Shown here: positions 2,884-61,880 of the stretch, piece after piece
Numbering within the stretch: position 1 is the stretch's first letter
Layout of the letters: the number at the start of each line of letters is the position of its first letter
Source of the DNA: a virus
Virus record (IMG/VR): IMGVR_UViG_3300028840_005768
Coordinates: 42,102 to 106,101 of that record
Reading direction: 5' to 3' (one strand)
Length of the DNA: 64,000 nt
Program-made: the position numbers and the translations under genes
The notes under the pieces: model-generated
The model's input: only the letters and a program-made list of their open reading frames with translations
Told to the model about the DNA's origin: nothing
Database searches by the model: none

Positions 2884-5333
2884 CAAATCATCTCCGGGGC
2901 TCGGATCTTCACAGGGTCCGCACCGCTCTTCTTTCCGGCCCAACTGTCCATCTCTTCGAACCACGTCATGCCAATCAAAGGCACCTGGGGCCGGAAGCTT
3001 TCAACGGTTGTGCGCACTTCTTCTGTGACGCGAGGCACGTAATCAGAGTGCGTGACTGTCATCAATTCGTCGTGGACGTTCATCGGGGCTACCATCAACT
3101 CATGGACACCGACCGGTTGGAGATCCCAGATGGTACGTTGGACGGCTTTGGTGATCTCGCCGCCAGGTGACTGGATCTCGTGATTGGCGGCAGCTCGCAT
3201 GTTGGCAGCCTGGAGGCCGAAGGCGGCCCCATAGAGCGCACTAGCAGCTGCGCCGCCGGCCGTCTGTACGCGGTTCCGTCGCCATACCTTCACGGGATGG
3301 TTACGCCATCCCTTGGGCGGCTTCTGGGCCAGCTCGAACATGGCTCGGCAGATGCGGTTCTCCAGGGTGAAGTAACGCTGAAAACCGAGGAATGACTGAA
3401 TATAGTCGGCCGGTTCATGCCAGATGACTTGTGTTCCTACGCCGCCTGGCTGCCTCATAGAGCAGAAAGCATCAAACGTCTTCTGGCGTGCGGTGGCTAC
3501 TCCGGGATATGCCGAGTTGAAATTCTCCATGGCGGCTTTGGCGATCTCTTCCGAGACGCCGATGTTCCGCACAAGGGTCTCCCACGTTCCACCATAGATC
3601 ATCCCAAAGACACCACGTTTACCCTGGTAGTACATATCATCCTGTGTCCCAGAGGATGCCAAGACTTCGGCATAGGTGTGGCCCGGGTACAGTGACATGC
3701 CGAACAGCCCGTGAAGCTTTTGACGCACCATGCCGTTCTCGTCACACTCACCGCATGATGCATCCTGGCAGAATGGGCACGGGATCTTCTTCACGAGCCC
3801 GGCACGCAAATGAGGATCGTTGTAGACGGCATCGGCCAAGGTCACCTCGAATGAATCGAAGTCACCGCCACAAAGCATGTAACCAGGCCATGCAAGTGGA
3901 AAGCAGCGACGAACATCCTTTGTCGCCTTGATGCCTTGGGCGTTCAGGCCACCGTCGCCGGACATGCGACTTGATTTCGTCCCAACCACCACGAAGCTTG
4001 CGTGGAAGCGTCCGGCCAAGAGGAGCTTGTTGTACAGCTCCACCTCTTTGGCAGCGATCTTGATGTTGAGAACTTCTTCCGCTCGCAAGGCAGCGGGATG
4101 CCTACCGGCTCTCAACACGCCCCCGTTGCAGCGCAAACACCCTTCGCCAAAGCACTTGGTACACTCTTCATCTGTTTCAACCTCCCAGTCACGGATCGCC
4201 TGCAACTTCGCTTTCTTGGTAGTCTCTTCGATGGTGAGCACCTCGGTGTCATCCATGACTTCGCTAAGGTACTGACGCACCTCAGAAGGCTTGTTTGTGT
4301 TGATGGGGCTGGCATCAACAATGGCTTTGGCCTTCGCACGCAAATCCTGCATCCCGCCTTTGTCAATGCGAAAGCCACGCCAGCGAATCACAGGAACCAT
4401 AGTGGCCAGAATAGAGTCGTTGTCACCCGGCTCAGGGTATTTGAAGTGTTCGTCCAAGGCACGGGTGTAGACGATGTCGTCCCGTGCGTACTCCCTCGCG
4501 GGCTTGTTGGTACCCCAGTGATCAATGAAGAGCTGAATCTGTGCCGGCCAAGTGTGACCCTCCAGCTTGGGCTCCTGCTTCTTCTTGTCATAGCCCCAGA
4601 CTTCCCACTTTGGTGGCTCAGAGATAGCCATAGCAAAGGGAGCGTAGCCCAGCTCCTTCGGATACCATGCTCGTGGCGGCTCAACATCCTCGTAGTGGTA
4701 CTTAGGCGCGTATCCCATGGCGTACTCGGCCAGGAACTTCAGGCCGCCGGCCGGAGCGAACCTGAGTACGACATCCTTGAAGTCGGGATCGATCGCACCG
4801 TCACGCTCACGGTCATAGACATGCCAACGAGGTGCCTCGGGATCTGCCTTCCGTGCGAAGAAGATGCCATCGATCTCGACCCGCTTCTCTAGCTCTTCCG
4901 CCAGGGCATAGGCCAAGGCAGTGGGCACCTTGCGGATGCGAACATCATCGCGAGCCATCAAGGCTTGATACGGACCCTTTCGACTGTGAAGCATCAGATC
5001 AAGAGCGCTGGCCGGCTTCACGCAGGGGCCATCCCGCCCCTCCGGCTCCTTCATCGCGATCTCAGGAATATGCTCTTGTGGGATCCAATCCGGGTTACAA
5101 AGGCGGAAGATCGTGTAGAGCTTGGCTACCATAAAATGGTCAAAGGCCAGGTTGAAACCGATGATGGTGTAATTACACCAGCTTTCAATTAGGGCAAGAG
5201 TTTTTCGAATTGGCTCTTTCCAAATGTCATAAAGCACAATGGGCCCATCCCCCTCCGCAAACTGGAAGAGAACAGGCATTGAATGCAGCCCACAAGTTTC
5301 CGAATCAAGGTACAAGCAGTTCTTACGCGACAT
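2883..5333 (-). CDS. Family A DNA polymerase with 3'-5' exonuclease domain
   Basis: 816 residues. The N-terminus has LYLDSETCG with Asp10 and Glu12 of the DEDD exonuclease. The polymerase palm motif A is GGDFDSFEVTL near residue 490, the O-helix motif B is KRGVFGMIYGG near 573, and motif C is NVHDELM near 754. No 5'-3' exonuclease domain is present, as in many phage replicative PolA enzymes. A cysteine-rich insert (CTKCFGEGCLRCNGG, and later CPFCQDASCGECDENG) suggests two structural zinc sites within the polymerase, which is unusual. It starts at ATG 5331-5333, overlapping the upstream HNH gene by 11 bases. It would be the main phage replicase. Confidence 0.92.
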   Translation of the reverse strand: MSRKNCLYLDSETCGLHSMPVLFQFAEGDGPIVLYDIWKEPIRKTLALIESWCNYTIIGFNLAFDHFMVAKLYTIFRLCNPDWIPQEHIPEIAMKEPEGRDGPCVKPASALDLMLHSRKGPYQALMARDDVRIRKVPTALAYALAEELEKRVEIDGIFFARKADPEAPRWHVYDRERDGAIDPDFKDVVLRFAPAGGLKFLAEYAMGYAPKYHYEDVEPPRAWYPKELGYAPFAMAISEPPKWEVWGYDKKKQEPKLEGHTWPAQIQLFIDHWGTNKPAREYARDDIVYTRALDEHFKYPEPGDNDSILATMVPVIRWRGFRIDKGGMQDLRAKAKAIVDASPINTNKPSEVRQYLSEVMDDTEVLTIEETTKKAKLQAIRDWEVETDEECTKCFGEGCLRCNGGVLRAGRHPAALRAEEVLNIKIAAKEVELYNKLLLAGRFHASFVVVGTKSSRMSGDGGLNAQGIKATKDVRRCFPLAWPGYMLCGGDFDSFEVTLADAVYNDPHLRAGLVKKIPCPFCQDASCGECDENGMVRQKLHGLFGMSLYPGHTYAEVLASSGTQDDMYYQGKRGVFGMIYGGTWETLVRNIGVSEEIAKAAMENFNSAYPGVATARQKTFDAFCSMRQPGGVGTQVIWHEPADYIQSFLGFQRYFTLENRICRAMFELAQKPPKGWRNHPVKVWRRNRVQTAGGAAASALYGAAFGLQAANMRAAANHEIQSPGGEITKAVQRTIWDLQPVGVHELMVAPMNVHDELMTVTHSDYVPRVTEEVRTTVESFRPQVPLIGMTWFEEMDSWAGKKSGADPVKIRAPEMI

Positions 5334-16843: not shown

Positions 16844-17458
16844 TTACAGGTCGTACTTGATCAAGGCACGATACACCTCCGCTTCAGCCATGGCGTCGTG
16901 GAGCGCGTCGTGCGGTTTGTCGTTGGTGATCCCGAGCTTCTTGCAGAGCGCCCCCAAGCCGACTCGCGGGAAGGGGATCTTCTCGCTGGCGAAGAGTGCC
17001 CTGTCGTTGAGCGCAAGGGCATATCGCATGCCGTCTCTTGCATGCCCGTGGAAGAGATGCTCGAAGAGATCGTCGCCCAACCAGGCCCGGCCGAAAGACC
17101 GTTCGAATTCCCAGTTGTGGGCGAGCGGCATGAGCTTCTTTGCTTGGGGCAGATCGATCTGCTCAAACCATTCGATGAGGAGATCCGAGACCCGCATGGC
17201 GGAGGGAGCATTGAGCATCAAGTCTTCGAGGTTGAGCCCATGCACCTGTTGAGCACCATGGGCGGCTCGCTCAGGATGCTCGGGCGCCACGTTATGGTAG
17301 AAGACAGGCAGCTCTGGGTGCGGCCTCAAGTCGGAATTCAGCGGGACGAGGGCCACTTGGATGATCTCGTGCCAACCAGCACGGAGGCCAGTTGTCTCAA
17401 AATCGATGGAGACCAGGAGGTGACCATTGAGATGCATCATGCCGGGATGGGTTTTCAT
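16844..17458 (-). CDS. DnaQ-like 3'-5' exonuclease (DEDDh)
   Basis: 204 residues. Motif Exo I is VSIDFETTGL (Asp19, Glu21), Exo II lies in LAHNWEFERSF and Exo III is HDALHDAMAEAEVYRAL, which supplies the catalytic His and Asp. This is the RNase T/DnaQ fold. It could proofread, trim ends or degrade host RNA or DNA. Overlaps the dNMP kinase stop as ATGA, so both are made from the same mRNA. Confidence 0.85.
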   Translation of the reverse strand: MKTHPGMMHLNGHLLVSIDFETTGLRAGWHEIIQVALVPLNSDLRPHPELPVFYHNVAPEHPERAAHGAQQVHGLNLEDLMLNAPSAMRVSDLLIEWFEQIDLPQAKKLMPLAHNWEFERSFGRAWLGDDLFEHLFHGHARDGMRYALALNDRALFASEKIPFPRVGLGALCKKLGITNDKPHDALHDAMAEAEVYRALIKYDL

Positions 17459-18180
17459 GCGGCATTCTCCGTAGAGGTGAGGCCGGCTTGAGCAAAGATA
17501 CGCTGGATGGCTGCTTTGTCAGGTAGCTCCTGAACTGCTAGAGCGGCTTGAATTTCGACCGGCTCACGCTGCAGGAGATGCAAACCTTGACCTTGCACAA
17601 TATGCTGAGCGTACTGATCAGCCCATTGCTTGAGATTCTCGATCCCGTCAACCCCTTCGGGTCGATCGCCGATCACGTTATCCCAGCTGGTGCAATGGAT
17701 GAGCGCCAAGTCGGCGACAGTCATCTTAGGCCCATAGCCATTGCGCACAATCTTGATCAGGTGGCCACCGACCTGGTGAATGGCTTCCATCTCGTTGGGA
17801 AAGCGCACATCAGAAATCACCATGACATCAAGATCAAAGTCTGTCTTCAGCAGGTAGTCCACCCAGGTCCCACTGTAGACTTGGTTGCGCACCGCTTTCG
17901 TGCCGAAATCGACCCACACTTCAACGGGTGTCTTACCAAGGACTGGCAGCACAACATCACGTTCGTGCTCATGGGCAGGATCATTGTAGTAGGCCTCATT
18001 TCCTAGCCCAGCCCAACCATAGAGTTCATGTGTGATCTCTTTGAGCTTCGTAGCAAAGCTCTTTCGTGCAACCCTGAGTTCAGGGTTAAATCGGTAGAGA
18101 CTTTGCAGAAGCGCATTGGCGAAGGTGTCCTTGCCAGTCCGCGAATAGTGGCCTAGTCCAATGATGATGGGTTGACTCAT
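17455..18180 (-). CDS. Deoxynucleoside monophosphate kinase
   Basis: 241 residues. The P-loop GLGHYSRTGKDT spans residues 8-19, and DVMVISDVRFPNEMEAIHQ, followed by LIKIVRNGYG, matches the phage dNMP kinase core, in which the Arg-Phe-Pro-Asn-Glu segment follows strand 4. It would phosphorylate dNMPs, possibly including modified ones, to support replication. The ATG at 18178-18180 has AAAGG upstream. Confidence 0.82.
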   Translation of the reverse strand: MSQPIIIGLGHYSRTGKDTFANALLQSLYRFNPELRVARKSFATKLKEITHELYGWAGLGNEAYYNDPAHEHERDVVLPVLGKTPVEVWVDFGTKAVRNQVYSGTWVDYLLKTDFDLDVMVISDVRFPNEMEAIHQVGGHLIKIVRNGYGPKMTVADLALIHCTSWDNVIGDRPEGVDGIENLKQWADQYAQHIVQGQGLHLLQREPVEIQAALAVQELPDKAAIQRIFAQAGLTSTENAA

Positions 18181-31433: not shown

Positions 31434-34400
31434 TTAGAAGGGGCGGAGTGTCCGCTTACGAAGCTCGCGTTGAAGACTTCGTCCCACCTCACGACCAGTC
31501 AGTTGCGGAGTTTTCGACTCATTGACTGTGACCGAAATGTCTCCGATGTTTGTGACCGAGCCGCCAGATTCACGATATACCGGCTTCACGCCCGCATTCA
31601 TTGCTTGGAGCTGAGGGAAGAACTGATGAGCCGATCGGGCATTCACCACAAACTCACCCTTCGACAACCAAGCAGGAATCACATCCGTGCCCCGGCCGCC
31701 CGCAGCGAAGTACTGCCCCTTGGCCGCCGTTTGTGCCGTAGGCGCCGTCAACGGTGCGGCAAGCCTTGCTGCATTACCGATCTCCGTCTGCAGGAGTCGA
31801 TACTGGCCCACCATGGCAGCAACCTTGTTCGTCCCTGCATCAACTGCCTCATTCAGTTGTTGCTGGGTCGTTACCGACTTCAACTCCTCTTGCCACCGTT
31901 CCCCAGCCTTCCGTTTGATGGCATCAAGGATCGGCAACATCTGACGAGCCTTCTCCGCCGCCTCGTCCCCTCCTTCAAAAAACTGGCTGAACGGATTCTG
32001 CTTCAGCTCCCCCATCTGCCCATAAGCTTCAGTGATGCGGTTGAGAGCACCTGCCATCACGTCGACTTCATGACGCATTTTTGGAGCGAATGCTTTTTGC
32101 CACCCTGTCTGAAGATAGTCTTCCCGGAAAGCCCGACCTAATTGGGATACACGATTGATCTCCTCTTGTGTTGGTATCCCTTGTGTCAACCCGATCAGAG
32201 CGCCACGAAGCTGATTAAAGGCAACAGCCCTTTGGTCAATTTCCGTAGACATCCCCATCTCATCCATATAGACACTTTCTTCAGTCCGTCGCCCGATGTC
32301 CGCCAACAACCGACCTGCCGTAGCCATGCTGGTGTTGTAACTATCAAGAGCCAGGGTCGCTTTCTGATATTGCTCAGGGGCAGTTTCCATTGACGTCTGC
32401 ATCGCCCGCTCAGCCCTCATGAGGGTTGCTGCATCGCCGATATTGATTCCCTGTACCTTTGCGACAGCCTCGATCTCCACCTGGAAAGGATGTTGATCAA
32501 AGAAAGTCTGAAACGCGCCCTGTGTCTCCTGGAACACTCTGTCCAGATTAGCCGGCATCGATACAAGCGTTTGGAATTCAAGCCCTTTCCCCGGCTTGGC
32601 AATGCGTTCGAAGAGCTGCTGAACAAAGGGTTGACCTTCAAGGCCGAAATGCTTCTGACCTTCATCAAGCAGCGCGTAGAAACGCTTGATCTCCGTCTCC
32701 ATCGTGGCACGATTCTTCTGCCATTCCTCGGCCGGAAGAACCTTGTCACCATCGAAGACTGTTGCCAGTTCCTCGATCTTCTTGGCGCTAACCTCCAGTG
32801 TTTGCATCCAAGCTGCCGTGTCCCTGGCGTTGGCTTCCAAACCCTTGCTGGCTGTTGTCAAAGACGACTGATGCGCACGCTCTGCCCGCATCATGCGACC
32901 ATACATGCTCTCTGCTTGCTCAGTGAGTTTGTTGGCCCAAACCTGTTCTTGATTTGATTGAGCAAGCGAATATGCCTGCTCATTCAAGGCAACCGCTCGC
33001 TGGTGTGCCTGTTGTGCCAACTGGACTTGCTCTTCCGTGACCGCCTTCCTCAGCAATTCAGCCGCTCGATAAGATTCTCGTTGAGCCCGATCAAACAAGG
33101 CACCCAACTTGAACTGATCCGGCAGCTGTTCAAGACCACGCGCAAAGAGCGTGTCCGACAACTCCCGCTTCAAGTCACGAGCCCGATCCGTTGAGGCATC
33201 AAAAAGCTCGTCCATGCCATTGACGGCAGCCTGAATTGCTTGAACGGCCTTCTTCCGAGAATCCAGGACCTGTCGCAGAGCCCATTTCGTGCTGCCAACA
33301 AGAGCATCATTCTTGACAGCAATCGCGTCCGTCGCCTCAAAGTACTTCTTGCGAGTCTCTGCAACCTCCTCGTTGTAGAGCTTCAGGATCTGCTTGACTT
33401 TGTCCTTCTCAAGCTGTGTCTCTCTGGCGACCTTCTTCTTCCGCTCCTCAAGCAGTCGATCCATGGCCTTCTTTGTAGCCTCGACTTCGGCATCCCATCC
33501 CGCGCGAATTGTGCGCCCGATATAGTCCCCAGCCATATAGGCGGCCAAGGCAAGACCAACAACGGAAATGGCACCCTTCATCGAGAGTGCCGACGCCGCG
33601 GCAGCATTCTGCGCATTGGCCAGAGACCACGCTCGAACTTCCGCCACACCCATCGCGATGGCAAACACTCCAAATGATGCCGCCAAAGCAGGAATAGTTG
33701 CCCCCAAGGAACGAAAGAGACGAATCAAAGTGTCCGCGCCACCCATGACATCGAATATCTGGTGCGAAGCGGCAATGATCTCTTCCCCGAACTCCCGGGT
33801 GAAGAAATTCTTCAATCGATTCAGCTCGCGTGTGACCCGCTCGACATCCGTTTCAATGAACATCTTGTATTCGCGATCAAAGGCCTCAGCCGCTTCCTTC
33901 TCGATCTCATCGAGATTGGCAGCGAACTTCTTCGCCCCATCGGCGCTCAAGATCAGCTCACCGACGATACCGCGAATACGAGGAAAGAGTTTGGCGATTG
34001 CTGCTGTCGAACCGTCCGTGTGCTCGGTTACCTCGAGCAGTGCTTCGCCAAGGGTCTTAGTCGCCAGAAGTTGCTCCGCCGACTCATACCCCAAATCACG
34101 AAGAGTATCCTTCATCGCCTTGCTCGGCTTGATGAAGGCCTGCATCACGCCGCGCAACTGGGTGGCGGCCTTGTTGGTATCGATCCCAGCGATCGTCACC
34201 GTCGCAAAAGCAGCCTGCAACTCCTCCATCTCGACACCAAGCTGTGCCGCCAACGGCGCCACAGTACCGAAGGAATTGGCCAACTGATCGGCTCGGGTAC
34301 GTCCTAGCTCGATCGTCTTGAAGAACTTGGCCGAGACATCCTCCGCCTCAGTGACATCCTTCCCGTAAGCGTTCAATGTCCCCGAGATCAGGTTGACGCC

Positions 34401-34958
34401 TGTATCGATATCGGTGACCGCAACCTTGGAGAACTTCGCAATGCTGCTGGTGAACGACTCCACGTCACCAACCGACTTGGCGACCTGATTCGACAACGTC
34501 TGATAGAACGCTTCGGTTGTGGACGCCAGCCCGACATTGAACTCATCCGATACCCCTTGAATGGCATCCTTCAAATGATCGAGATTCTTGACCGGAGAAA
34601 TCGTACGGACTTCGGCGACTTTTCTCTGAAACTCAGCAGCATCCGCCACTGCCGCATTGAGCGCATTCCGCAAGGTGCTCAACGAACGGACAATCGCCTG
34701 GGTGGTCACAATCCTGACCATCGTCTTCCAGTCGACAGTCAAGCGTTGGACTTTCTTACTAGCGTCTTTCAAGCCGTCATTTGTCTGGCCCAATCCTTGA
34801 GCGACTTGGGCTCCGTTCTGATTGAACTGGCCCATCATCTCTGCCGTGCTCTTGAGGCGATCCTCAAGCTTGGCAAAGTGTTGATCCAACTTGCGCAAAG
34901 TGTCTAAGGCTTGTGCGGCTGAGAATCCCAGTTCTTGTCTGATTTCGTCAGCCATCAT
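31434..34958 (-). CDS. Tail tape measure protein
   Basis: 1174 residues, the longest structural gene. The N-terminal third matches the TP901-type tape measure domain (VRTISPVKNLDHLKDAIQGV, KFSKVAVTDIDTGVNLISGT, LGVEMEELQAAFATVTIAGI, ATQLRGVMQAF). A hydrophobic region around residues 430-490 is the usual membrane-interacting part, and the rest is alpha-helical coiled coil. Length sets tail length; by analogy with about 1.5 Angstrom per residue the tail would be of medium length, consistent with a siphovirus. Two adjacent ATG codons (34956 and 34953) precede the frame. Confidence 0.9.
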   Translation of the reverse strand: MMADEIRQELGFSAAQALDTLRKLDQHFAKLEDRLKSTAEMMGQFNQNGAQVAQGLGQTNDGLKDASKKVQRLTVDWKTMVRIVTTQAIVRSLSTLRNALNAAVADAAEFQRKVAEVRTISPVKNLDHLKDAIQGVSDEFNVGLASTTEAFYQTLSNQVAKSVGDVESFTSSIAKFSKVAVTDIDTGVNLISGTLNAYGKDVTEAEDVSAKFFKTIELGRTRADQLANSFGTVAPLAAQLGVEMEELQAAFATVTIAGIDTNKAATQLRGVMQAFIKPSKAMKDTLRDLGYESAEQLLATKTLGEALLEVTEHTDGSTAAIAKLFPRIRGIVGELILSADGAKKFAANLDEIEKEAAEAFDREYKMFIETDVERVTRELNRLKNFFTREFGEEIIAASHQIFDVMGGADTLIRLFRSLGATIPALAASFGVFAIAMGVAEVRAWSLANAQNAAAASALSMKGAISVVGLALAAYMAGDYIGRTIRAGWDAEVEATKKAMDRLLEERKKKVARETQLEKDKVKQILKLYNEEVAETRKKYFEATDAIAVKNDALVGSTKWALRQVLDSRKKAVQAIQAAVNGMDELFDASTDRARDLKRELSDTLFARGLEQLPDQFKLGALFDRAQRESYRAAELLRKAVTEEQVQLAQQAHQRAVALNEQAYSLAQSNQEQVWANKLTEQAESMYGRMMRAERAHQSSLTTASKGLEANARDTAAWMQTLEVSAKKIEELATVFDGDKVLPAEEWQKNRATMETEIKRFYALLDEGQKHFGLEGQPFVQQLFERIAKPGKGLEFQTLVSMPANLDRVFQETQGAFQTFFDQHPFQVEIEAVAKVQGINIGDAATLMRAERAMQTSMETAPEQYQKATLALDSYNTSMATAGRLLADIGRRTEESVYMDEMGMSTEIDQRAVAFNQLRGALIGLTQGIPTQEEINRVSQLGRAFREDYLQTGWQKAFAPKMRHEVDVMAGALNRITEAYGQMGELKQNPFSQFFEGGDEAAEKARQMLPILDAIKRKAGERWQEELKSVTTQQQLNEAVDAGTNKVAAMVGQYRLLQTEIGNAARLAAPLTAPTAQTAAKGQYFAAGGRGTDVIPAWLSKGEFVVNARSAHQFFPQLQAMNAGVKPVYRESGGSVTNIGDISVTVNESKTPQLTGREVGRSLQRELRKRTLRPF

Positions 34959-47475: not shown

Positions 47476-47853
47476 TCACAAAGAATGAATGGAGGAATCT
47501 GTAAAATCACCATCACAAATCACTTTGACAAGCATGGAGACGAGAAGATCAATGTCATCGGTACGATGCGTCTCGGTGCCGTCTTGAAGAATCACATAGA
47601 CCGGCAAACGGTGGATACGGTATTTCTGTACCAACCGCGGATGCTTGTCAAAATCAACCTCCGTGACATTTACACCACACTTACAAATCTCCTCCAACTG
47701 AGAATGATCACGTCGACAGGCACCACACCACGTCGCCGTGAAAGCCAACACTTCAACCTTTGGCTCACTGGATTGCCCCATCTTGGCGACACTTACCGAA
47801 ACAACAGCAAACATGAGCGCCACGAGGCAGAAGATGAAGAAAGGTGATTTCAT
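47476..47853 (-). CDS. Secreted thioredoxin-like protein
   Basis: 125 residues. Residues 1-23 form a signal peptide (MKSPFFIFCLVALMFAVVSV). The thioredoxin active site is FTATWCGACRRDH with Cys43 and Cys46, and the later cis-Pro is in HRLPVYVILQDG. CKCGVNVTEVDFDKHP may add a disulfide. An exported oxidoreductase could help fold disulfide-bonded virion or host proteins in the periplasm. Sited in the late operon between a papain-like protein and the terminase. Confidence 0.8.
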   Translation of the reverse strand: MKSPFFIFCLVALMFAVVSVSVAKMGQSSEPKVEVLAFTATWCGACRRDHSQLEEICKCGVNVTEVDFDKHPRLVQKYRIHRLPVYVILQDGTETHRTDDIDLLVSMLVKVICDGDFTDSSIHSL

Positions 47854-51482: not shown

Positions 51483-51728
51483 ATGCGACAGTACCAGATC
51501 CTCTACCGTAAGCCCGAGACCGATTGGGTCCAGCTCGAGCCCCACATCCACAGCCGCATCTACGATCGGCCCGAAATCAACGCGTCAATTGAGTACATGA
51601 AGGAGAACTGCCGTGTCGAGGGGATGGCGATCCGGTTGGAAGCGGAACTCTTCAACCTCATTGCCTGCGACAAACCCAAACTGGAGCTGAACTCCTTCCC
51701 CATGGAGGCGGCGGATGCGACGACGTAG
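51483..51728 (+). CDS. Hypothetical protein opening the plus-strand cassette
   Basis: 81 residues. MRQYQILYRKPETDWVQLEP, then an alpha-helical middle (INASIEYMKENCRVEGMAIR). An AGGAG ribosome site lies 6 nt before the ATG. It lies next to the divergent late promoter. No plus-strand promoter is clear. Function unknown. Confidence 0.6.
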   Translation: MRQYQILYRKPETDWVQLEPHIHSRIYDRPEINASIEYMKENCRVEGMAIRLEAELFNLIACDKPKLELNSFPMEAADATT

Positions 51729-52227
51729 ACGTACCCCCAAGCCGGCGCCCAAGCCTGCGGCCAAACCGCAGCTCCGCATGCAGATCACCTACGAGTGTCG
51801 GGTCCATCATCAAGACCTGGAGGCATTCTTGGCCCAAGTCTACGGGACCGTTGGCTACGACGTCCTCCGGGCCACAGGTGTTTCCCGCGGCATGATCCCT
51901 GAATTCATCGTAACCGGAACCCTTCCGCCAGCCACCAACATTGAACAGCAGGCCGACGCAATCCGGCGGGGGCGGAGAACACAGAATCTCCACCTGGTCT
52001 TGAACGTCCTCTGCCAGGACGGGTTCATTCCCGCCGGCAAGTATGTGATCGACACCACCAAACGTGAAAGTCCGATCGTCGTTTACACGCGACTGCTCAA
52101 TACGACCCATGACCCGAATCACCCCCGATGTCTCGCCTTCAAACGCAAACATCAGGGCAACACTCAGTTTATGAAACGCGCCGCCATTCTCGATCGCAGA
52201 GCCAACCAGGAACAAAGGGATGTATGA
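51715..52227 (+). CDS. Hypothetical basic protein
   Basis: 170 residues. Residues 1-20 are very basic (MRRRRRTPKPAPKPAAKPQL), followed by a domain with TGVSRGMIPEFIVTGTLPPA and KYVIDTTKRESPIVVYTRLL. The start overlaps the upstream stop by 14 bases and the end overlaps the SufU-like gene by 8. May bind nucleic acid. No family recognised. Confidence 0.6.
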   Translation: MRRRRRTPKPAPKPAAKPQLRMQITYECRVHHQDLEAFLAQVYGTVGYDVLRATGVSRGMIPEFIVTGTLPPATNIEQQADAIRRGRRTQNLHLVLNVLCQDGFIPAGKYVIDTTKRESPIVVYTRLLNTTHDPNHPRCLAFKRKHQGNTQFMKRAAILDRRANQEQRDV

Positions 52228-52573
52228 AGAACACGTCCTTGGCCACTACCAAGTACCATATCACCGCGGCCGTCTATACAAACCGACCCATCGTGGCACC
52301 GCGGTCAGCACAGTCTGTGGAGATCACGTAACCATAGAACTTCACATTGCCAATGACCAAATTGGCAGTATTGCGTGGGATGGGTATGGCTGCTGTTTCT
52401 CACAAGCAGCCGCCTCGATGCTCGTCAAGCATCTCCATGGAAGGGAGTCTTCCACCATTGATCAACTCAATGAAGCGGACATGTTCCGACTCTTTCAAGC
52501 TGATGTCCCCGATGTTCGGAGACAATGTGTCCTTGTTGCTTATCACGCCTTGAAGAACCTGGAGACAGTCTGA
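52220..52573 (+). CDS. IscU/SufU-like Fe-S cluster scaffold protein
   Basis: 117 residues. MYEEHVLGHYQVPYHRG matches the family start. The three cluster ligands and the Asp are in place: Cys33 and Asp35 in STVCGDHVTIEL, Cys58 in WDGYGCCFSQAAASMLVKHL, and Cys103 in RRQCVLVAYHALK. IscU/SufU proteins assemble [2Fe-2S] or sulfur transfer intermediates for apo-enzymes. Its overlap with and closeness to the radical SAM gene suggest it supplies that enzyme's [4Fe-4S] cluster. No cysteine desulfurase or transfer partner is seen, so host SufS/IscS would be needed. Confidence 0.82.
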   Translation: MYEEHVLGHYQVPYHRGRLYKPTHRGTAVSTVCGDHVTIELHIANDQIGSIAWDGYGCCFSQAAASMLVKHLHGRESSTIDQLNEADMFRLFQADVPDVRRQCVLVAYHALKNLETV

Positions 52574-52881
52574 TGAGCATCCAGACACCAGACGACTGGT
52601 GGAACCTTGTTGATCAAAACTGGGATTACCTGGTCAGCATCATCGGGCATCTGATGGTTCTTGGATTCCCGGCCTTCGAGACACCAGGTGATTCCGAATC
52701 GCCAGCGACCGGTCGCAGCATCCGGGAAGAGATCGTCCACCTGAAAGAGACTCGCAATCAGAAGCTCGCTCGCTATTTCCATGCAGCCTGGGGACTGGCC
52801 TCAGACGCTTACGCCTGGAGCGTCCCTGGTTGGGGCGCTCTCTGTGATCTTTGTTCCGAGGAATGGGTATTTCATCAATGA
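52573..52881 (+). CDS. Hypothetical Trp-rich protein
   Basis: 102 residues from ATG 52573-52575, overlapping the SufU stop as TGATG. DDWWNLVDQNWDYLVSIIGH, KLARYFHAAWGLASDAYAWS and WGALCDLCSEEWVFHQ show many Trp residues and one CDLC pair. It lies between SufU and the radical SAM gene and could be a partner of either. Function unknown. Confidence 0.6.
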   Translation: MSIQTPDDWWNLVDQNWDYLVSIIGHLMVLGFPAFETPGDSESPATGRSIREEIVHLKETRNQKLARYFHAAWGLASDAYAWSVPGWGALCDLCSEEWVFHQ

Positions 52882-53732
52882 AGACGCACACCTTCTCCAT
52901 CGTCGTTGGCACAGCCGCTTGCAACGCCGACTGTCCGTACTGCGTCAGCAAAATGACGCGAACGGCGGCCGGCAGACTGGACGTGAATTGGCGCCGCTTC
53001 CGCACTGCCTGCAACATGGTCTGCCACGCAAGCGACGGGTTGATCAGCGTCCTTCTGACCGGGAAGGGTGAACCATTGCTCTTCCCAGAATTGATCAGTG
53101 ATTACTTGCGGGAAATGCAAGCGTACGCTTTCCCGTTGATTGATCTGCAGACAAACGGCATTCTCATCGAGCACAGCCACGAGCAGCTCAAGCATTGGAG
53201 AGATCAGGGTCTCACTCTTGTCTGCATCTCCATCTGTGACTACGACCCGGCGATCAGCCGTCGCTTGATGCGGATCAAAGAGGAATTCAACTTCTGGTCC
53301 GCTGTCGAACGAATCCACAACGCCGGCCTGGCCGTGCGTCTCAACTGCACAATGCTGAATGACGGGATCTCGACACCGGAGCAAGTGGAACACCTCATCG
53401 ATCGCTGTGTTTGCCATGGGGTCGAGCAACTCACCTTACGTGAAGTCGCACGACCCAGCCTGCCCATCGAACACCCCGCCGTTCAGTTTGTCGACGAACA
53501 GAAGCCGCATGACGCCGCCCGCCGGCTGTATCACTACTTGGAAATGAACAACGCCTTCAAACTCCTCGAATTGCCGCACGGCGGCCTCGTCTATGACTAC
53601 CGCAGACAGAACGTCTGCATCGGCAACTGCCTGACCAGTACCACCGATCCCAACGACATCCGACAGATCATCTTCTTCCCGGACGGACGAATCACGTACG
53701 ACTGGAACCACCTTGGAGCAAGACTGTTATGA
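52878..53732 (+). CDS. Radical SAM protein
   Basis: 284 residues from ATG 52878-52880. The [4Fe-4S] motif is AACNADCPYCVSKMT with Cys15, Cys19 and Cys22 (CxxxCxxC). A SAM-binding GE pair is in LLTGKGEPLLFPELI, followed by IDLQTNGILIE. The C-terminus holds NVCIGNCL and IIFFPDGRITYDWNH, like the substrate-end of many small-molecule radical SAM enzymes. The start overlaps the upstream stop as ATGA and the end overlaps DeoC. The substrate is unknown; a nucleobase or nucleoside is suggested by the neighbours. Confidence 0.82.
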   Translation: MKTHTFSIVVGTAACNADCPYCVSKMTRTAAGRLDVNWRRFRTACNMVCHASDGLISVLLTGKGEPLLFPELISDYLREMQAYAFPLIDLQTNGILIEHSHEQLKHWRDQGLTLVCISICDYDPAISRRLMRIKEEFNFWSAVERIHNAGLAVRLNCTMLNDGISTPEQVEHLIDRCVCHGVEQLTLREVARPSLPIEHPAVQFVDEQKPHDAARRLYHYLEMNNAFKLLELPHGGLVYDYRRQNVCIGNCLTSTTDPNDIRQIIFFPDGRITYDWNHLGARLL

Positions 53733-54379
53733 ATTACACCAAAGAGGACATCGCTGCCGCCCTGGACCTGGCCGTTCTCAAGCCAACTGCCACGATGGAA
53801 GATGTGAGATGCGCTTGTGCCTTGGCCAATAAACACGGCATCAAGAGTGTCTGTGTTGCACCTGTCTACATTTGGCTGGCTGCCAGCATGCATGACAACG
53901 TGTCAACGGTCATTGCCTTCCCGCATGGTAACACGGTACCCAATGCAAAACTCGAGGAAGCCTACCTCGCAATGACCAACGGTGCCCGTGAACTCGACGT
54001 TGTCGTCAACTACGGACGATTCCTGGATGGCGACCATGACATCGTGTTTGCCGAGCTGAAGCCCATTATCACCCGTGCCAGACGGTATGGTGCCAAGGTC
54101 AAGGCCATCCTAGAGACCTGCTACTACACACCTGCACAACTCGTGGATGCCTGCAATCGTTGCATTGAAGCAGGTGTCGACTTCCTGAAGACATCCACCG
54201 GCTTCGGACGTGAAGGAGCTGATCCAAAGCGTGTCAACCTCATGCTCAATGCCGCTGAAGGTACCGACGTTGAGGTGAAGGCGTCCGGCGGCATCCGAGC
54301 TTACGCCGATGCAGAACGCTACCTCGACATGGGCTGTACCCGCCTTGGCTCTTCTCACTTCTTGGAGTTGCTACCGTGA
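53729..54379 (+). CDS. deoC: Deoxyribose-phosphate aldolase
   Basis: 216 residues of the class I aldolase fold. DFLKTSTGFG places the Schiff-base Lys154, VKASGGIR gives the second lysine Lys184, and GARELDVVVNYG gives Asp90. The enzyme interconverts 2-deoxyribose 5-phosphate with acetaldehyde plus glyceraldehyde 3-phosphate. It starts ATGA-overlapped with the radical SAM gene. It could recycle sugar from broken host DNA or remove deoxyribose phosphate made by base exchange. Confidence 0.9.
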   Translation: MNYTKEDIAAALDLAVLKPTATMEDVRCACALANKHGIKSVCVAPVYIWLAASMHDNVSTVIAFPHGNTVPNAKLEEAYLAMTNGARELDVVVNYGRFLDGDHDIVFAELKPIITRARRYGAKVKAILETCYYTPAQLVDACNRCIEAGVDFLKTSTGFGREGADPKRVNLMLNAAEGTDVEVKASGGIRAYADAERYLDMGCTRLGSSHFLELLP

Positions 54380-54915
54380 ACAGACTTGCAGGCATGCGTG
54401 GCTACTTGTGTGGCGCCATGGACCGTGTCGACGACGGCGGCATCGGTTGGCGTCGGCGTCTCAAGCATGAGCTTGAAGACCTGAATGTTCATTGGTTGGA
54501 TCCCACACGAAAGCCCATCGATATCGGCATCGAAGACTTGGAAAATCGCCAGTTACGCCGTGACAACAAACATCAAGGCGACTTCGACTCTGTCCGTCGA
54601 GAGATGAAAATTGTCCGGTGTGTTGATCTACGAATGGTTGACATCTGTGACTTCATGCCGGTGCGCATCGATCTGGATGTCCATGCCTGTGGCACCTACG
54701 AAGAGATCACGACGGCGAACCGACAGAAGAAGCCGATCCTCGCGCATGTTGTCCAAGGAAAGGAAAACGCCCCCGACTGGCTCTTTGGGATGCTCCCGCA
54801 CGAATTGATCTTCTCAACAGAAGATGAAGTGTGCGCCTACCTCCGACACATCGCCCACACCCCCGACATCAACACTCTCAACCGCTGGTACTTCTTCAAC
54901 TTCTGTGGTGAATGA
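54376..54915 (+). CDS. Nucleoside 2-deoxyribosyltransferase-like protein
   Basis: 179 residues from GTG 54376. MRGYLCGAMDRVDDGGIGWR is the nucleotide-binding start and VHACGTYEEITTANRQKKPI holds the Gly-Thr-x-x-Glu catalytic segment of this superfamily. IGIEDLENRQLRRDNKHQGD and VVDICDFMPV-like parts follow the fold. It may move a base between deoxyribosides or hydrolyse a nucleotide. The overlap with DeoC, as GTGA, supports a joint nucleoside pathway. Confidence 0.75.
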   Translation: MNRLAGMRGYLCGAMDRVDDGGIGWRRRLKHELEDLNVHWLDPTRKPIDIGIEDLENRQLRRDNKHQGDFDSVRREMKIVRCVDLRMVDICDFMPVRIDLDVHACGTYEEITTANRQKKPILAHVVQGKENAPDWLFGMLPHELIFSTEDEVCAYLRHIAHTPDINTLNRWYFFNFCGE

Positions 54916-55418
54916 TGAAGAACACTTGGTTCACCGCAGACACCCACTTCGATCACGAAGGCATCTTCGAGCATATCCCCGAGCGCGTCACCGCCTTCCA
55001 TGACGTGCTTGAAATGGGAACGGCATTCGTCGATGGGATCAATGCTTACGTGAAGCGAGGCGATCGATTGATCCACCTCGGGGACTTCTGTTGGAGAGCA
55101 CATCGCGCCGGACACTGGAGACAACGCCTCAACGTCCGCGAACTGTGGGTCTGCCAAGGAAATCACGACGCCTCATCCCTGCGACGGCATGTCTCACGGA
55201 TGGAGTTGATGATCTTCTTCCAGAACTTGCACCTCAGCCACTACCCGTTGGCCTGCTGGCACAAGAAGTACACAGGTGGGCTCCATCTGCACGGACACAG
55301 CCACGGTCGGATGCAAACGATACCAGGTCGGCTCGACGTCGGCATCGATCCGATCTTCCGGCTGACAGGCGAGTGGCGGCCGATCCATCTTGACGAGGTT
55401 CTCGAACAATGCCGATGA
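54912..55418 (+). CDS. Calcineurin-like metallophosphoesterase
   Basis: 168 residues. The metal-binding motifs are FTADTHFDH (DxH), LGDFCWRA (GD), CQGNHDAS (GNHD), LSHYPL and LHGHSHGR. This short form is common in phages and may remove phosphates from nucleotides or 2',3'-cyclic phosphates. Two adjacent ATG codons (54912 and 54915) are possible starts. Overlaps the deoxyribosyltransferase-like stop, so it is a cassette member and perhaps dephosphorylates nucleotide intermediates. Confidence 0.85.
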   Translation: MMKNTWFTADTHFDHEGIFEHIPERVTAFHDVLEMGTAFVDGINAYVKRGDRLIHLGDFCWRAHRAGHWRQRLNVRELWVCQGNHDASSLRRHVSRMELMIFFQNLHLSHYPLACWHKKYTGGLHLHGHSHGRMQTIPGRLDVGIDPIFRLTGEWRPIHLDEVLEQCR

Positions 55419-55780
55419 AGCGATGCCCAAGCTGCAGGGCAGAACACGGCGCCCGCAAGCTCGTCTGTGACTGCGGCCACGACTTCGGATGCAAACGAGC
55501 GACCAAACGGCACCCGCTCTATCCCGAGCCAGGTGGCTGGGTACTCGACCAGGTCCGTGGCCTGCCCGAACTGCCGCCGCCGGATCCACTCCCGCGCGGC
55601 CCTGTCAGTGCTTCTGCCGTGAAAGAACACGTCTCGTTTGAAGGCCTTGGCTTCTGCATCTACTCCTACATCCCGGCGGATCGAATCACGGACGCCAAGC
55701 TGAAGAGATTGTGGACCAAGGCGCGAGCCGCCATGCAAGAGATCGTTGAGTACCTGGAGACTGTTGACTATGACGCTTGA
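55409..55780 (+). CDS. Hypothetical protein with N-terminal zinc ribbon
   Basis: 123 residues. RCPSCRAEHGARKLVCDCGH forms a four-cysteine ribbon at the start; a Pro-rich linker and a helical end (DAKLKRLWTKARAAMQEIVE) follow. Overlaps the phosphoesterase gene by 10 bases. No function assigned. Confidence 0.62.
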   Translation: MPMKRCPSCRAEHGARKLVCDCGHDFGCKRATKRHPLYPEPGGWVLDQVRGLPELPPPDPLPRGPVSASAVKEHVSFEGLGFCIYSYIPADRITDAKLKRLWTKARAAMQEIVEYLETVDYDA

Positions 55781-56087
55781 ACAAGCCATCCGAGAAATGC
55801 GCAACCACACCGACCTGTGGCCATGGTACTGGCTCAGCTACGGCGAAAAGTGCTACGCCTTCGCCACAGTCGAAGCATTCCCAGCCGTCGAAGGGGACCC
55901 GTTCCCGGAGCCAGGCACAGAACTCCGGCCGGATACCGAAGGGGAATGGATCGGAGAGAACGGCACGAAGATGATCATCAACGAGACGATCGCCGAGATC
56001 GAGCGTCAGAACGGTGACACCATCTGCCGGTTCCTTGCGACGGCGCACGCAAGACTGGTGAAGCCAGTAACAGGAGGCGGAGAATGA
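55770..56087 (+). CDS. Hypothetical protein
   Basis: 105 residues from ATG 55770-55772. LEQAIREMRNHTDLWPWYWL, SYGEKCYAFATVEAFPAVEG and a helix NETIAEIERQNGDTICRFLA. Overlaps both neighbours. No family recognised. Confidence 0.58.
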   Translation: MTLEQAIREMRNHTDLWPWYWLSYGEKCYAFATVEAFPAVEGDPFPEPGTELRPDTEGEWIGENGTKMIINETIAEIERQNGDTICRFLATAHARLVKPVTGGGE

Positions 56088-60903: not shown

Positions 60904-61028
60904 GCTATTGTTACAATGCGCCCCATAATGTATCGAATCGGCCGCGCTTCCTAACCGCGCGCTGGTCGACGGCCCTAAGTTGTTACCCTACAATAGTTTA
61001 CGGTTCTGTTTACGTACACTTGTAATTG

Positions 61029-61672
<644 letters not shown>

Positions 61673-61880
61673 ATATTTTCTCTCAGAATTTTGTAACGAT
61701 TGCCCTAATTATTCACCCTAATCCCTCGCTAGGGTGTCTTATTCTGCAATCGCGACACCGCGCGCCCCGATTCTAGGCGAGAATCCGGCCGGATTCCTCA
61801 TATATAGGGGCGTTTCCGCGCTTGCAGATACGACATTACTCGCAACCCCTTGTGTCATATAGGTTTACAATTCATTGACA
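61673..61880. repeat. Leader repeat copy A (about 200 bp)
   Basis: Shares long exact blocks with 62131-62356: GCTTGCAGATAC, CTAGGCGAGAATCCGGCCGG, CATATATAGGGGCGTTTCCG and others. It holds the palindrome GAATCCGGCCGGATTC and a CACCCTA/TAGGGTG hairpin and runs into a consensus promoter. Confidence 0.8.

Follow-up and report, generated by a model that had tools for sequence, protein, structure and literature searches.

We analyzed a run of overlapping genes in a 64,000-nucleotide stretch of viral DNA (the window; bases 42102-106101 of the 106,101-base IMG/VR record IMGVR_UViG_3300028840_005768). Six of these genes lie in one operon, encoding a NifU-like protein, a small open reading frame (ORF), a radical SAM enzyme here called rSAM1, the aldolase DeoC, a protein resembling nucleoside deoxyribosyltransferase (NDT) and a phosphoesterase. 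With moderate confidence, we read it as an accreted metabolic operon of a tailed phage whose modules are a pair that cleaves deoxynucleo(s/t)ides, a radical enzyme linked to NAD, an iron-sulfur (Fe-S) supply and a general phosphoesterase. In the pair, the NDT-like enzyme would cut a deoxynucleotide or deoxynucleoside between base and deoxyribose, and DeoC would then split the deoxyribose 5-phosphate so released into acetaldehyde and glyceraldehyde 3-phosphate; together, the pair would remove or salvage particular deoxynucleotides during infection, as pool editing or salvage. To this, rSAM1 would add a radical enzyme for the metabolism of NAD(P) or related nucleotides. Together with a SufS-family protein from the same record, the NifU-like protein may supply or repair the Fe-S clusters needed by rSAM1 and by a second, radical-SAM-like protein (rSAM2), and the phosphoesterase would be a general phage enzyme.

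The overlapping genes form one operon

The record encodes a terminase, portal, major head protein, tape measure, integrases and ParB-like proteins, together with DNA polymerase A, primase/helicase, DNA ligase and RNA ligase, and we therefore assign it to a tailed phage. Nine same-strand genes overlap in positions 51715-56087 of the window, a run that extends on both sides beyond the cassette of the preliminary description:

51715..52227, + strand: ORF170, which opens the overlapping run; without a Pfam, NCBIfam or usable PHROG match
52220..52573, + strand: NifU_N/IscU-like Fe-S scaffold or sulfur-transfer protein, 117 residues (PF01592, phrog_8429)
52573..52881, + strand: small ORF, 102 residues, with its ATG start taken from the TGATG overlap; no family match
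52878..53732, + strand: rSAM1, radical SAM enzyme, 284 residues, the better start being the ATG at 52878 (PF04055)
53729..54379, + strand: DeoC, deoxyribose-phosphate aldolase (TIGR00126, catalytic motifs)
54376..54915, + strand: NDT-like protein of the NDT/DNPH1 superfamily, with Glu110 (AlphaFold2 model, Foldseek, family alignment)
54912..55418, + strand: calcineurin-like metallophosphoesterase (phrog_547, 2e-34)
55409..55780, + strand: ORF123, with a zinc-ribbon-like N terminus by eye (phrog_17752, 5e-7, a family without assigned function)
55746..56087, + strand: ORF113, last of the overlapping run; no Pfam, NCBIfam or PHROG family

The coordinates and junctions bear out the earlier claim of overlapping genes in one operon, with overlaps of 1 and 4 bases within the cassette. 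The NifU-like gene and the small ORF share one base (TGATG), and the four junctions from the small ORF through rSAM1, DeoC and the NDT-like gene to the phosphoesterase share four bases each (ATGA or GTGA). ORF170, upstream, shares 8 bases with the NifU-like gene, and ORF123, downstream, shares 10 with the phosphoesterase gene. Such a run of overlapping genes is not chance. Among the families that had been named, DeoC, radical SAM and phosphoesterase stand; in place of SufU stands a NifU_N protein with a score under the SufU cut-off, and the assignment of the deoxyribosyltransferase, below the Pfam cut-off by sequence, is carried by its fold.

Comparisons with other records used a simple ORF picker for neighboring genes; these records may be fragments, and several loci are near-duplicates. 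In the phage fragment L021, a homologue of ORF170 (57%) directly precedes NifU. The small ORF is not conserved, a different gene occupying its place in L021. The phosphoesterase family is a common phage gene, found in 193 phage records, and we rejected a link between it and the cassette because it is too common in phages.

DeoC and the NDT-like protein are a conserved phage pair

By its score and catalytic motifs, the phage DeoC is a genuine member of its family. It reaches 183.6 bits against TIGR00126 (E 3e-54; cut-off 117.3), matches DERA in the PDB at 4e-38, and carries the motifs ELDVVVN (Asp), KTSTG (Schiff-base Lys) and KASGG (second Lys); a regular expression found the catalytic motifs kept in 24 of 29 DeoC sequences. 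The NDT-like protein falls below the Pfam cut-off for PF05014 (E 0.024, 15.2 bits; cut-off 28.8). We aligned its family from viral contigs and obtained an AlphaFold2 model with a pLDDT of 89, for which Foldseek returned NDT (7e-6), DNPH1 (3e-4), the CMP N-glycosidase BcmB (9e-4) and then YtoQ, with a probability of 1.00. Glu110 is invariant in 37 NDT-like sequences and may correspond, by motif only, to the catalytic Glu of NDT and DNPH1. By motif comparison, the substrate may be a nucleoside (as in NDT) or a nucleotide (as in DNPH1), and the Ser and Arg of RCL that we take to bind phosphate are unmatched in the phage protein.

A viral scan seeded with rSAM2 gave 80 loci (L218-L297) that were examined for both genes. 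DeoC is present in 28 of them and NDT in 28, with both in 27; the two genes are at most 30 bases apart in 19 of these 27 loci and at most 702 bases apart in all 27, even as the genes around them move. In two further relatives (L058 and L059), a canonical NDT lies between the DeoC and NDT-like genes, and in L056 rSAM2 lies between DeoC and NDT. Because the pairing is kept across the 27 loci and these three relatives, DeoC-NDT is a conserved phage module.

Where marine phages have the NDT family but no true DeoC, its neighbors include SSB, dUTPase, dCMP deaminase, MazG and IMPDH/GMP reductase, which fits nucleotide-pool work. Of 33 non-redundant NDT loci, 12 also have a protein weakly similar to DeoC near NDT. 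Its Schiff-base Lys is replaced, with PASGF instead of KTSTG in marine phages (L072, L081, L084, L085, L090, L095, L099 and L101), and Pfam gives no match for it. For rSAM1 and DeoC, viral scans with a single protein gave no matches, and alignments were needed instead. Matches to DeoC and SufS in named phage records were left uncounted, as most come from contigs that lack annotation, bear the names of Listeria, Enterococcus or Salmonella phages and are probably host DNA. A literature search for DeoC with a deoxyribosyltransferase in phage gave nothing relevant.

Homologues of the radical SAM enzyme lie among NAD genes

rSAM1 scores above the cut-off for the Pfam Radical_SAM family (PF04055; E 3e-11, 44.1 bits; cut-off 29.5). 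Its CX3CX2C motif (Cys15/19/22) is invariant in 67 sequences, and a GKGEP motif is also present. The preliminary description had proposed structure prediction and remote homology for this protein and the NDT-like one, and both models gave an answer: NDT/DNPH1 for the latter and, for rSAM1 (pLDDT 94.8), MoaA as the best Foldseek match (3e-11) with BlsE and viperin also found, at template modeling (TM) scores of 0.60-0.67. We rejected identity with either MoaA (45.3 bits against an NCBIfam equivalog cut-off of 284) or viperin (29.8 against 180), and what is presumably MoaA's C-terminal three-cysteine cluster is missing from rSAM1. rSAM1 belongs to an undescribed MoaA/viperin-like radical SAM family, whose homologues (~26-60% identity) are found in phages, DPANN archaea and bacteria of the candidate phyla radiation (CPR). 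The window's rSAM1 nests within the family tree and is ~31-43% identical to most genome members over its full length; of the 49 columns conserved in the NAD-linked members, it keeps 43.

Clustering of neighboring proteins placed NadE, NAPRT (PncB), nicotinamidase (PncA), NadM, NadD and NadK around rSAM1 homologues, assignments that were confirmed on representatives with Pfam and NCBIfam. Among 54 DPANN and CPR genome loci (L108-L161), with a neighborhood of 5 kb, at least one NAD gene accompanies rSAM1 in 33, at least two in 24 and at least three in 17, and a gene resembling a pyridoxal phosphate (PLP) aminotransferase is near it in 19, usually directly after it. By our own estimate for six genes in a ~0.8 Mb genome, chance would place ~0.1 NAD genes at each locus; this proximity, seen in 33 of 54 loci, is therefore not chance. 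Six viral rSAM1 loci, some of them near-duplicates, have the same setting, for example PncA-rSAM1-PncB-NadD-NadE, and rSAM1 lies among NAD genes in the phage loci L029, L037-L041 and L051. NAPRT and NadE are each present in 10 of 34 rSAM1 records, and NadE is in 0 of 16 NDT-only records (Fisher p 0.02, uncontrolled for genome size). Because rSAM1 homologues sit inside NAD synthesis and salvage operons in DPANN and CPR genomes and in some phages, NAD metabolism is the best-supported link of rSAM1. In most phages it stands alone, and a literature search for a radical SAM enzyme with NAD salvage gave nothing relevant. Separately, in a 735-kb phage (LR756501), a NUDIX hydrolase gene directly precedes the rSAM1 homologue (L005:7305-7829).

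A bolder reading, which we hold somewhat less likely than not, is that rSAM1 is an unrecognised NAD(P) enzyme common to DPANN, CPR and phages, acting beside PncA, PncB, NadD/M, NadE and NadK, and often beside the PLP aminotransferase-like protein. The phage would then have joined rSAM1 and its own Fe-S supply to the deoxynucleotide-cleaving DeoC-NDT pair.

Candidate Fe-S supply

The NifU-like protein matches Pfam NifU_N (PF01592; E 1e-18, 68.2 bits; cut-off 22) and phrog_8429 (2.5e-19), and lies below the NCBIfam SufU cut-off (TIGR01994; 68.3 against 92.5 bits). Alignments with its PDB matches, IscU and SufU, show that it carries Cys33, Cys58, Cys103 and Asp35. Its 45 residues between Cys58 and Cys103 are nearer to the spacing that we take to be that of IscU than to that of SufU. 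A viral scan with this protein found the L021 record only, where the homologue (47-50% identity) has the same Cys and Asp motifs. NifU-rSAM1 recurs on this 13-kb fragment (record G005), whose contig ends 132 bases beyond rSAM1, short of any DeoC-NDT genes that may have followed. NifU_N is also weakly present in three of 39 rSAM2 records. In another record (G034), two tandem, overlapping and diverged NifU_N proteins are encoded (L210:3081-3515 and 3508-3897), the second without the first ligand-cysteine motif.

Two further genes lie outside the window in the same record:

record 32805-33575 (L003:12805-13575), - strand: rSAM2, 256 residues, with CX3CX2C and four C-terminal Cys, ~60 kb from the operon
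record 33603-34748 (L003:13603-14748), - strand: SufS-family cysteine desulfurase, beside rSAM2

The SufS-family protein's PLP Lys loop (SGHKM) and Cys loop (RAGTHCA) align to SufS structures; TIGR01979 is its best-scoring family, although the cut-off is not reached (408 against 475 bits). The earlier idea of an Fe-S scaffold beside a radical SAM enzyme is thereby strengthened beyond what was proposed, and the sequences suggest that NifU-like protein and SufS are a possible minimal Fe-S assembly pair of the phage. A protein search for SufS in 50 records gave no match, though this search had no positive control, and an Aminotran_5 gene is absent from all 39 other rSAM2 records, with our record positive as the control. 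Viral nifU is on record as an auxiliary metabolic gene of marine viruses, filed as Fe-S assembly, and the five-gene phage set is not described there (PMC8940887).

The complete set is found in one record

rSAM2 has no Pfam, NCBIfam or PHROG match, and it is radical-SAM-like by motif only; it nonetheless represents a large phage family, confirmed on 99 contig stretches. The radical-SAM-like protein that recurs with DeoC-NDT in other phages is rSAM2, a different protein from rSAM1. Of 50 records, four contain rSAM2, and each of these also has DeoC (Fisher p 3e-4, which ignores relatedness). rSAM1 is present in only 1 of the 26 searched rSAM2 records with DeoC-NDT, and in none of the DeoC-NDT records among the 39 other rSAM2 records. 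Two records (G006 and G009) contain both rSAM1 and DeoC-NDT, 9-15 kb apart. The gene order that the preliminary description suggested seeking in viral databases recurs in no other record searched, and a conserved five-gene cassette was therefore rejected.

Three side observations concern other parts of the record. A thioredoxin-like protein with a signal-like N terminus is encoded near the terminase gene (window 47476-47853, - strand), and a low-complexity repeat of the SGVWCPVSGVRC type, with several frames open, occupies window positions 60988-61776. An N6/N4 DNA methyltransferase (L003:11449-12240) has the catalytic motif DPPD instead of the usual DPPY, with homologues in L056-L059 and L209-L211.

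Weighing the explanations

The single pathway that was first proposed would have the radical SAM enzyme, NDT and DeoC make or exchange an unusual deoxynucleoside, and a deoxynucleoside monophosphate kinase activate the product for phage DNA. The kinase noted near 17.5 kb is present:

17455..18180, - strand: deoxynucleoside monophosphate kinase (PF21448, 3e-6; phrog_139, 4e-27)

The record also encodes a thymidylate-kinase-like AAA_28 protein, the NDT and rSAM folds both fall in nucleotide-acting groups, and a radical-SAM-like gene does recur with DeoC-NDT. Of this proposal, the operon and the conserved DeoC-NDT pair survive; the tie of rSAM1 to NAD genes, its rarity beside DeoC-NDT and the commonness of the phosphoesterase leave the single pathway only partly supported. 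In its usual direction, moreover, DeoC breaks the sugar down and does not build a nucleoside. No thymidylate-synthase-like, hydroxymethylase, 7-deazaguanine or ribonucleotide reductase gene was found by Pfam in 37 non-structural proteins, or among the PHROG matches listed (25 of 53 families). Nothing found points specifically to an unusual deoxynucleoside, and we consider this pathway very unlikely.

The genes might instead share one operon by happenstance, each useful alone and with no single pathway. The confinement of the complete set to our record, the many phages with rSAM1 alone, the marine NDT genes that mostly lack a true DeoC, and the unlinked phosphoesterase and small ORF all argue for such independence, but a DeoC-NDT pairing that outlasts rearrangement in 27 loci, and the recurrence of NifU-rSAM1 in L021, make it somewhat unlikely. 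Counter-defence is a further candidate: by analogy with NARP1, rSAM1 and its partners might restore or shield pools of NAD or nucleotides that host defence has depleted. NAD depletion and its reconstitution by phages are described, the five-gene set not being described there (PMC12774641), and rSAM1 homologues do lie within phage NAD operons; with NAPRT and NadE missing from our record, we judge this quite unlikely.

The accreted operon, our preferred explanation, has its own points to answer. The fold scores of the NDT-like protein are modest (TM 0.5-0.6), its sequence cannot separate a transferase from a nucleotide hydrolase, and the DeoC reaction is reversible. Most of the 27 DeoC-NDT loci come from one related phage group, some being near-duplicates, and the SufS and NifU-like genes are ~60 kb apart. 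NAPRT and NadE were looked for in our record and neither was found, so rSAM1 is without its usual partners there.

If the accreted operon is correct, the phage would control nucleotide pools in an unusual way, through deoxynucleotide catabolism by an N-glycosidase and an aldolase, for which we found no description in the literature. The rSAM1 family offers a testable lead to a missing or extra NAD step in the reduced CPR and DPANN lineages and in phages, and the presence of SufS together with a NifU-like protein in one phage suggests that certain phages sustain Fe-S enzymes of their own.

Comparison with known systems

The phage DeoC shares with bacterial DeoC all catalytic motifs and a score above the TIGR00126 cut-off, but its gene overlaps an NDT-like gene instead of accompanying nucleoside phosphorylases. 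With DNPH1/RCL and NDT, the NDT-like protein has in common the fold (Foldseek 7e-6 to 1e-3), the invariant Glu in GTxxE and the YLxG start motif; it differs in lying below the PF05014 cut-off and in its family-specific W25R26, QGK and RW motifs. MoaA, BlsE and viperin share the radical SAM fold and are the best structural matches of rSAM1, whereas rSAM1 is far under the MoaA and viperin cut-offs and has NAD-gene neighborhoods. As in the SufS-SufU system, a SufS-family enzyme and a NifU_N protein occur together, here within one phage record, but the phage genes are unlinked and the NifU-like protein does not reach the SufU cut-off. In contrast to the viral NifU auxiliary genes (PMC8940887), the NifU-like gene here shares its operon with a radical SAM gene, and the record also encodes SufS.

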